Shown one piece after another: positions 7,224-33,924 of a stretch of DNA of 64,000 nt. The position numbers and the translations under genes are program-made. Numbering within the stretch: position 1 is the first letter of the stretch; each line of letters opens with the position of its first letter. This DNA is from Candidatus Woesearchaeota archaeon (lineage in GTDB: Archaea > Nanobdellota > Nanobdellia > Woesearchaeales > JABMPP01): contig JAGVYD010000010.1 of NCBI GenBank assembly GCA_018303405.1, forward strand, positions 1 through 64,000, given 5' to 3'. The notes under the pieces are model-generated. The model did no database searches and was not told where the DNA came from. It saw only the letters and a program-made list of their open reading frames with translations.

Positions 7224-7329
7224 AGTCTCACTCCTTCGCCTCATCAGCATTCCACAGGCATTGCACATCCTGCCGGTTGCCGCTTATAAGTCACATCCGA
7301 TTAAAACCTCTGTCATATTTAAACTTTTT

Positions 7330-7512
7330 GATGCCCCGGGCTTTGCCCGAAAAGTTAGTTTGGGCATCAATTTTGCGAAGCCCATTTTCGGAGGGATCAA
7401 GCATTTTTCGGGGTTGCAGAGGAGAAAAATGCAATTCGCGGGAAGCTGCAATGCTGAGCGGATGCCCAAGCCGAGCCGGAAGGCGAGTTTTCGGACAAAG
7501 CCGATGCCCCGG
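7330..7512 (+). ncRNA. Structured element A: candidate non-coding RNA or palindromic repeat (copy 1 of 2)
   Basis: The element folds into nested stems: P1 7339-7353 with 7488-7502; P2 TTGGGCATC (7360-7368) with GATGCCCAA (7461-7469); P3 GCATTTTTC (7401-7409) with GAAAAATGC (7424-7432). Between P2 and P1 lies a small hairpin GCC-GGAA-GGC (7475-7484) flanked by tandem G-A pairs. The element at 33627-33852 has the same order of stems, with compensatory base changes in P1 and P2. A TATA-like box (ATATTTAAAC, 7313-7322) lies upstream on the plus strand, and the GNRA-type loop also favours that strand, but the strand is not proven. The direct repeat GATGCCCCGG flanks it (7330-7339 and 7503-7512). 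It does not match 5S, tRNA, SRP or RNase P RNA as I know them. Confidence 0.6.
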
Positions 7513-14016: not shown

Positions 14017-14062
14017 TAAACTTTTCTTTGCCGATTCAAAGAAGAGGCGAAAGAAAAGTTTA
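14017..14062 (-). terminator. Hairpin at the 3' end of the 5S rRNA gene
   Basis: TAAACTTTTCTTT (14017-14029) pairs with AAAGAAAAGTTTA (14050-14062); the stem continues with GCC/GGC around a one-base slip. Read on the minus strand, it begins exactly where the mature 5S RNA ends. It can be a processing stem or a terminator; no long T-run follows it. Confidence 0.6.
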
Positions 14063-14176
14063 GGTGACAGCTTTCCATGTTTCCCGTTCTGAGAACAGTA
14101 CAGCATGGAACGGAGGCTTGCTTGACTTCCGAGTTCGAAATGGGATCGGGTAGAACCAAGTCCCTATGGCCGTCTG
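14062..14176 (-). rRNA. rrf: 5S ribosomal RNA
   Basis: About 115 bases on the minus strand. The terminal helix pairs GACGGC near the 5' end with GCTGTC near the 3' end. The conserved inner block CCCATTTCGAACTCGGAAGT and the later AAGCAAGCC are hallmarks of 5S RNA, as is the hairpin TTCTCAGAACGGGAAACATGG region. It is not next to 16S, 23S or tRNA genes here, so the rRNA genes of this genome are at least partly unlinked. Ends are set from the terminal helix and are good to a few bases. Confidence 0.93.
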
Positions 14177-14197
14177 GAGCATAGCAAGAAAAGGCCA

Positions 14198-31953: not shown

Positions 31954-32703
31954 CTACTTAACTTTTCTTGCCTTGATTATCTGGTAGTGCGCATGATACG
32001 GGTCAATCCATGCAAAGAATCTCCCAATCAATTCCGGGAAAGGGTAATATCCGGCGCCCTTCACAGCTTCTATCTGAAATCCAGCCTGCGTTAATGCTCT
32101 CTTCAAAGACCTTGTTGTCATCACCACGACATGTCTTAGCGCACCCTGCTTCTTCTTGTCCATTTTTTTCCCGCTGTTGAAGACTTTTTGCATCCTGTCA
32201 TCATTCATCTTGCTGATGCAGGCCATGTCGCCGTCTGTATTGTCCTTTATATGGGGTCCTGAAAATGGCTGCATGCCCATAAGCAATGCAAAAACATTAT
32301 GCCAGCTTGCGAGATTTGGCGTGCCAATAAGGGCATAGCCGTCCCTGTCCAAAACCCTGTAAACCTCTGCAATGAATTGCTCAGTGTTTACCAGGTGCTC
32401 AATCACATGGTATGCAATTGCCACATCCACCGACCGGCCGGGAAGCGGGAATCTGTCATTGAGGTTTCCGATATAGACTGTCAGGCCCCTTTTCTTGGCC
32501 TGAATTGCCTTGCTTTTCACAAGCTCAATGCCTGCAACATTCTTGGTGCCTATAACGCCGGCATACTTCATGCTGTTTTCGCCATCCCAACAGCCCAGGT
32601 CAAGCAGCCTTGCGCCCTTTTTCCTTTCCATCAGGGAATAGAAAATATCAGTGGACCTTCTTGCAGTGCCCTGATAAAGCCATTTAAGATATCGTTTTAT
32701 CAT
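31954..32703 (-). CDS. SAM-dependent methyltransferase
   Basis: 249 residues. LLDLGCWDGENSMKYA (motif I), VAGIELVKSKA, then VDVAIAYHVIEHLVNTEQF and the ALIGTPNLASWHNVFAL block typical of methyltransferases in glycan clusters. Its ATG overlaps the stop of the upstream dolichol-phosphate-type glycosyltransferase (ATGA), showing translational coupling. Substrate unknown. It converges on the methyltransferase ending at 31900, leaving only 53 bases between them. Confidence 0.86.
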   Translation of the reverse strand: MIKRYLKWLYQGTARRSTDIFYSLMERKKGARLLDLGCWDGENSMKYAGVIGTKNVAGIELVKSKAIQAKKRGLTVYIGNLNDRFPLPGRSVDVAIAYHVIEHLVNTEQFIAEVYRVLDRDGYALIGTPNLASWHNVFALLMGMQPFSGPHIKDNTDGDMACISKMNDDRMQKVFNSGKKMDKKKQGALRHVVVMTTRSLKRALTQAGFQIEAVKGAGYYPFPELIGRFFAWIDPYHAHYQIIKARKVK

Positions 32704-33587: not shown

Positions 33588-33626
33588 GCCGCAGAAAAAG
33601 GGCAGGGCATTTAAATAATTTTGCAA

Positions 33627-33852
33627 TGGGCAGGCGCTGTCCAGAGACTTGGTTTTGGCATCAAAGTTGCGAGGCTCTTCAATTATCGCCTAAAGCATTT
33701 TTCGCGGTGTTGTCACTCGTTTCACTCGTTCGACACTTGAGCAATTCTTCGAATTGTCAAGTTCCAGATAGAAAAATGCAATTATTGTCATTTGTTCAAA
33801 GCCGAGCCGATGCCAAAACTCGAGCCGAAGGCGAGATTCTGGACAGAGCCCA
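33627..33852 (+). ncRNA. Structured element B: candidate non-coding RNA or palindromic repeat (copy 2 of 2)
   Basis: Same order of parts as element A. P1: 33633-33645 with 33838-33850 (core CTGTCCAGA/TCTGGACAG). P2: GTTTTGGCATC (33652-33662) with GATGCCAAAAC (33809-33819), 11 perfect pairs. P3: GCATTTTTC (33695-33703) with GAAAAATGC (33771-33779). A short hairpin with tandem G-A pairs (CTCGAGCCGAAGGCGAG, 33819-33835) precedes the 3' arm of P1. The loop of P3 is larger than in A and holds an extra hairpin ACTTGA-CAATTC/GAATTG-TCAAGT (33736-33762). It lies between the GT2 gene and the PadR gene, and fills most of that 337-base gap. A TATA-like CATTTAAATA (33609-33618) is near its 5' end but also serves the divergent GT2 gene. 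Confidence 0.6.
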
Positions 33853-33924
33853 ATGGATAAGGCGCTGCAGAAAATGTAAGTCCTGCCGTCAATTGACTGC
33901 CTCCCTCCGAACCAATGGGCAAGG

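Follow-up and report, generated by a model that had tools for sequence, protein, structure and literature searches.

A probable promoter-targeting, MITE-like foldback element of Woesearchaeota

The two intergenic elements A and B in the window (the whole stretch of 64,000 nt analysed here, from contig JAGVYD010000010.1 of a Candidatus Woesearchaeota archaeon) are very probably copies of a promoter-targeting, non-autonomous, MITE-like DNA transposon of Woesearchaeota. As far as could be found, this order-wide transposon family is undescribed: open-licence papers hold no prior description of archaeal promoter-targeting transposons or of Woesearchaeotal MITEs, subscription journals and preprints being outside this scope. 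Insertion at a fixed position upstream of promoters has been described for a few bacterial transposons, and no report of it for an archaeal TATA box was found in open-licence papers. A first-pass annotation of this DNA had proposed that A and B share one fold. Both elements turned out to be real and alike, and their ends could be refined to positions 7339-7502 (A) and 33633-33850 (B), each plus 9-bp duplications, while the targeting of promoters was an unexpected finding that is absent from that annotation.

Ends, copies and distribution of the element

Element A (7339-7502, + strand) is a MITE-like foldback element of 164 bp that belongs to subfamily A and is flanked on both sides by the same 9-bp target-site duplication, GATGCCCCG (7330-7338 and 7503-7511). 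Its left terminal inverted repeat, GGCTTTGCCCGAAAA (7339-7353, + strand), forms the 5′ arm of the outermost stem P1 and complements, with one mismatch, the right terminal inverted repeat, TTTTCGGACAAAGCC (7488-7502, + strand), which forms the 3′ arm. Element B (33633-33850, + strand) is a subfamily B copy of 218 bp with terminal inverted repeats at 33633-33647 and 33836-33850 (both + strand). It lies between the target-site duplications CAATGGGCA (33624-33632) and CAATGGATA (33851-33859), which are identical at 7 of 9 positions, the right copy having two mismatches against the left.

In two details our description differs from the earlier one: P1 is the terminal inverted repeat of a transposon, and B has an additional arm, a ~55-nt extension within the apical loop of stem P3 (33708-33762, + strand). 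Among the subfamily B copies listed, this extension is missing in all others but L043, which has a longer and different insert, and a homologous apical P3 arm of ~55 nt is present in several subfamily C copies (L055-L058 and L060, G000). L043 itself (G000:C9, about 265215-265506) is a copy of ~300 bp in which the P3 arm is replaced or extended by several further hairpins.

A covariance model (R1) built from 19 copies of the own genome (1.6 Mb, 23 contigs), A included, finds exactly two places in the window, namely A with 170.9 bits and B with 138.1 bits; the remaining matches are weak ones on the opposite strand at A and B, followed by chance level. When A was used as the query, about 30 matches were obtained in the own genome, comprising about 25 copies at 88-94% identity, several truncated copies and a group at 70-73% identity that represents B's type. 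A search with a third type, subfamily C, added ~12 copies in the own genome, and two more types, D and E, were seen among the flanking loci, which gives five subfamilies (A to E). Altogether there are ~45 analysable copies in the own genome, mostly of 140-220 bp, with one of ~120 bp and one of ~300 bp. The terminal repeats and stems differ between the subfamilies, and the architecture is constant: P1 (the terminal repeat), P2, an internal loop with a tandem GA, then P4 and P3, with a small hairpin confined to the 3′ side. At one locus (L036/L051, G000:C3, about 32263-32494) a subfamily C copy directly adjoins a truncated A copy, which suggests insertion beside or into an older copy. A subfamily C copy also lies ~0.9 kb from an archaeal RNase P RNA gene (L049:242-585; RF00373, 145.9 bits).

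Among 116 other genomes of this order, 19 match the model (20 of 117 with the own genome included), and copy numbers among these relatives reach 20 in G078 and 18 in G052. In a pattern scan over one genome per species (84,980 species), the 18 named stretches were all from Candidatus Woesearchaeota; viral contigs gave no match to either the core pattern or the right-end pattern. Copies in relatives measure either about 140-180 or about 200-220 bp; the longer form, of ~200-220 bp, is found in other families of the order as well, so that it coexists with the short one. The first-pass annotation had suggested a covariance-model search, and this search brought up further covarying copies both in the own genome and in its relatives. 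For four loci in two genomes (L148, L160, L165 and L168 in G113 and G056) the match is limited to the element core, and in place of the outer parts there is another long inverted repeat, GAGCTGTGGCTGA..GTCGAAAGGCGG; these core-only matches possibly represent a sister family.

The copies bear the hallmarks of MITEs, that is, terminal inverted repeats, a target-site duplication of fixed length, and many short, dispersed copies that hold no transposase gene. The terminal inverted repeats are present at both ends of the copies, measure ~14-15 bp (95.5% of P1 is paired) and are continued inward by the conserved nested stem P2. A 9-bp target duplication matching at least 8 of 9 letters flanks 34 of 45 copies in the own genome and 47 of 72 in relatives (81 of 117 overall), compared with 17 of ~1,980 mismatched end pairs (about 1%) in the control, and the duplicated sequence lacks a strong motif.

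Insertion at the upstream edge of promoters

The flanks of the element, read outward from either end, have a common layout: positions 1-9 are taken up by the target duplication, those from about +10 to +15 by an A-rich stretch resembling a BRE, and a TATA box begins at +16. As a TATA box we counted any match to TTTAWATA with at most one mismatch, its position being the start of the box counted outward from the element end. The box starts exactly at +16 in 19 of 68 flanks in the own genome (with 5 at +17, 6 at +18 and few elsewhere) and in 22 of 122 flanks in relatives. Counted by insertion, 35 of 45 copies in the own genome and 39 of 72 in relatives have a box at +15 to +19 in one flank or both, against 1.1% of random window positions (binomial P below 1e-55); with this simple consensus, 22% of the own and 46% of the relatives' insertions have no box at +15 to +19. 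Windows shifted along the same flanks yielded only 0-2 insertions with a TATA box, which controls for copies merely lying between genes.

Both elements of the window follow this layout. Counted outward from the left end, the TATA box of A, TTTAAATA (7316-7323, - strand), is at position 16 and is directed at a PRC-barrel gene on the - strand. On the same count the TATA-like box of B, TTTAAATG (33608-33615, - strand), is at position 18, and 28 nt further on comes the ATG of a family 2 glycosyltransferase gene, also on the - strand. More generally, an open ATG frame follows downstream of the box in 56 of 72 flanks, and its distance from the TATA start clusters at 28-32 nt, as expected for nearly leaderless archaeal genes. 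Flanks without a box also often have such a frame (70 of 128), and hence it is the clustering of the distances, not the count of frames, that serves as promoter evidence. The promoter lies on the left side of the element in 31 cases and on the right side in 40 (P 0.34), that is, without orientation bias.

MITEs usually occupy AT-rich intergenic regions (PMC10969869), and the elements could in principle be ordinary intergenic MITEs whose TATA signal reflects mere survival between genes. Such survival predicts a broad distribution of distances, whereas the position of the TATA box is fixed, with its peak at +16 and almost nothing elsewhere; moreover, families of the order with different terminal repeats show the same promoter pattern. 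We therefore reject this explanation, which we consider extremely improbable. Insertion targeted to promoters would place the element just upstream of the BRE, where it spares both the promoter and the gene, so that copies could accumulate in a compact genome. The element would also mark core promoters (BRE, TATA box and near-leaderless start) in uncultured Woesearchaeota.

The conserved interior fold

The nested stems and the small G-A hairpin described by the first-pass annotation are indeed common to A and B, and the compensatory base changes are genuine. In a sequence-only MAFFT alignment of 19 own copies from four subfamilies, 97.1% of the cells are paired in 46 stem pairs, 23 of which show a double compensatory change; if one arm is displaced by 1-3 columns, the pairing falls to 32-45%. 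Across 92 covariance-model matches from the own genome and relatives, covariation was found in all 46 pairs, with 995 double-change cells versus 275 in shuffles and none of 500 shuffles as high. Because these 92 rows were fitted to the model and eight of them are reverse-strand matches of the same elements, this alignment leans towards structure; the sequence-only result agrees with it. Folded as single sequences, A is unremarkable (z = -1.24) and B remarkable (z = -3.42), so the thermodynamics of single copies is indecisive and the evidence for the fold is comparative. A conserved fold with compensatory changes, as in structured non-coding RNAs, is present.

In element A, all parts of the interior can be placed on the + strand. 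The arms of P2 (7358-7368 and 7461-7471) have 98.5% of their cells paired in the covariation alignment, with covariation in 11 of 11 pairs. The GA letters of the internal tandem G-A motif are at 7377-7378 on the 5′ strand and at 7456-7457 on the 3′ strand; although unpaired, these letters, which stand on either side of the internal loop, rank with the most conserved ones of the whole element (G 95% and A 94% in alignment columns 62-63, G 96% and A 96% in columns 280-281), and the covarying pairs beside each GA mostly have a pyrimidine on its 5′ side and a purine on its 3′ side. The arms of the apical stem P3, placed by the R1 match, are at 7401-7409 and 7424-7432 and show U-A to G-C compensations in subfamily C. 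The G-A hairpin on the 3′ side, C-GA-GCC-loop-GGC-GA-G (7472-7487), changes from GCC/GGC to GGC/GCC in subfamilies D and E; in strict columns, the GA letters flanking it reach G 73% and A 67% on the left and G 89% and A 86% on the right.

Tandem G-A pairs in a Y-GA-R context are a known stable non-canonical motif. In duplex DNA the GA letters would be normally paired, yet they are conserved within a covarying frame, suggesting that a folded single strand has been selected; judged from the alignments, such a strand seems to be under selection. This bears on the possibility, raised in the first-pass annotation, of a palindromic mobile element whose arms are corrected against each other. Arm-to-arm correction is known for imperfect palindromes; by template switching it would produce compensatory changes without any function, and the covariation of P1 needs nothing more. 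It leaves unexplained, in contrast, the conserved unpaired tandem GA and the pyrimidine/purine rule beside it, as well as the asymmetric architecture, which different families of the order have in common. We consider pure arm correction improbable and insufficient as an explanation; mobility, in turn, is firmly borne out by the many copies, the inverted repeats, the 9-bp duplications and the order-wide occurrence. Mobility alone does not explain the strong conservation of the interior, and a conserved single-strand fold inside a MITE is unusual in itself.

The annotation had further found that the elements are not 5S, tRNA, SRP or RNase P by pattern and proposed an unrecognised RNA family. The first statement agrees with our searches: at the gathering threshold, the sole Rfam match in the whole window was a 5S rRNA, with none at A or B, ARAGORN found no tRNA in the window, and Rfam searches over the element copies with E up to 1 gave nothing but a snoRNA match of 21.7 bits, below the cut-off of 50. 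The 5S rRNA gene (RF00001, 61.3 bits) is at 14062-14177 on the - strand. As for the second, the proposal stands in that the fold matches no Rfam family, and the G-U and A-C counts do not separate a folded strand of RNA from one of single-stranded DNA. Leaving aside the weak P4, distinct G-U and A-C events in the internal stems number 29:7 (P 0.0003), compared with 19:15 in the terminal repeats (Fisher P 0.04 versus internal stems). This asymmetry leans towards a strand-specific fold, whether of RNA or of single-stranded DNA. The share of G-U among the standard pairs of the same internal stems is just 1-5%, which is low next to usual structured RNAs.

If the element were a mobile structured non-coding RNA, its transcript would be the functional product, acting for example as a guide or scaffold that transposition requires in trans, or as a regulator, and the terminal repeats would serve mobility only. 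The order-wide covariation of the interior would fit this, as would the strong conservation of the tandem G-A modules in their Y-GA-R context and the excess of G-U inside relative to the ends, which looks as if the interior acted as a single strand and the ends as duplex. We nevertheless regard a functional transcript as doubtful, given the low G-U share and that no internal promoter or transcript is known; in folded DNA, too, a G-T wobble is milder than A-C, and since both orientations to the promoter are equally common, read-through transcription of one particular strand is not favoured. A fold acting at the DNA level, by cruciform extrusion or as a single-stranded hairpin recognised by a recombinase, as for REP hairpins and integron attC sites, is possible, and we hold it tentatively. 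It would suit the near-pure Watson-Crick covariation with few wobble pairs and the absence of orientation bias, and tandem G-A in a Y-GA-R context is stable in DNA too. The 9-bp duplications, however, point to staggered cuts by a DDE-type enzyme acting on duplex ends. For the MITE-like transposon that we prefer, we suggest that the + strand of the interior (P2, the tandem G-A module, P3 and the 3′ G-A hairpin) folds and functions as a single strand, whose likeliest use would be recognition by the mobilising enzyme or a host protein, be it as RNA, extruded DNA or single-stranded DNA.

Candidate mobilising enzymes and known systems

No transposase with matching ends was found in element-bearing genomes among the seven families searched (PF01609, PF12762, PF03400, PF13610, PF10551, PF00872 and NF033572). 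The transposases of the own genome were searched family by family; PF01609, searched in the own genome only, gave nothing there, and PF12762, PF10551 and NF033572 gave nothing in 16 element-bearing genomes. The matches to PF00872, confined to two genomes, were weak and fell on proteins that score better with PF13610. Since a Mutator-superfamily transposase was thus not found in these genomes, we describe the element as MITE-like with promoter-precise insertion and not as a new p-MULT element.

Further candidates for a parent were rejected. PF03400 occurs in G078 only, on an IS1-like element with different ends, GGAAGTGTTATCATTTGACTGAT. Proteins matching PF13610 are present in 7 of 16 genomes, the own genome having none, and lack matching ends; one group of them (L217/L224/L226), whose DNA is 81-87% identical across two families of the order, is part of a different element. 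When lone terminal repeats in G078 were examined as possible ends of a parent IS, they turned out to belong to decayed copies next to ordinary genes or to copies truncated where a contig ends. An IS240-type DDE domain and an N-terminal zinc ribbon are combined in transposase-like proteins observed at L220:1360-2544 and L221:1324-2478 (both - strand) and at L217, L224 and L226, two of them with SWIM-like CxC..CxH motifs. The IS1-like element of G078 (L177-L196) has 49 partial matches, many of them at contig ends, and hence breaks the assembly of this genome.

An autonomous relative with the same ends was accordingly not found in the genomes searched, and the parent may lie elsewhere, which weakens descent from a known IS and not the mobility of the element. 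With an element so widespread and so conserved in structure, the missing mobiliser is worth hunting. In the mechanism that we propose, a DDE-type transposase supplied in trans would pair both element ends, and insertion would take place at the upstream edge of a promoter, either via bound TBP/TFB or by direct reading of the BRE/TATA DNA. The element would then be an archaeal counterpart of the Mutator-superfamily elements TnGBS, ISLre2 and ISKra4, and our guess, from this likeness, is that the mobilising enzyme may be Mutator-like. More speculatively, and with no great confidence, a transposase outside the current families might be guided to promoters marked by TBP/TFB and move a mini-element whose conserved folded strand, possibly RNA, is one working part of the machinery. 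If true, TBP/TFB-guided transposition would be the archaeal analogue of Ty3 and TFIIIB. As TBP and TFB/TFIIB are common to archaeal and eukaryotic core promoters, the element could link bacterial promoter-targeting transposons with the factor-homing retroelements of eukaryotes.

Among known systems, TnGBS, ISLre2 and part of ISKra4 enter sigma-A promoter regions 15-17 bp upstream of the -35 box, with 8-9 bp duplications, and in both orientations if their inverted repeats are near-perfect (PMC3942029). The woesearchaeal element shares with them the duplication length, the fixed distance of 15-17 bp (with its peak at 16), the insertion in both orientations and the terminal G/C. The type of promoter differs: the bacterial elements target sigma-A promoters and have a transposase of their own, whereas the woesearchaeal element adjoins an archaeal TATA box with a BRE and has no transposase gene. 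Its inverted repeats, at 14-15 bp when the nested stem P2 that continues them is not counted, seem short for Mutator-type elements (18-39 bp).

ERIC, Correia/NEMIS and REP are also small repeats of the foldback type, and their transcripts fold into long hairpins. They are described as bacterial intergenic foldback repeats (PMC10969869). Unlike them, the woesearchaeal element is archaeal, has no Rfam family in common with them and covaries across an order, and its duplication is 9 bp long, compared with TA or none. It resembles prokaryotic MITEs, including those of Sulfolobus and haloarchaea (PMC10969869), in being short, multicopy, intergenic and foldable, with inverted repeats and duplications, and is unlike them in that no autonomous parent was found, insertion is promoter-precise, and different families of the order share the interior structure but vary in their terminal repeats. 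Finally, the archaeal ISH6 (p-MULT 2) has been suspected of a promoter preference through an AT-rich target motif (PMC3942029). The duplicated target of ISH6 is AANATNTT, whereas in the woesearchaeal element the TATA box lies outside the duplication, at a fixed distance from it.
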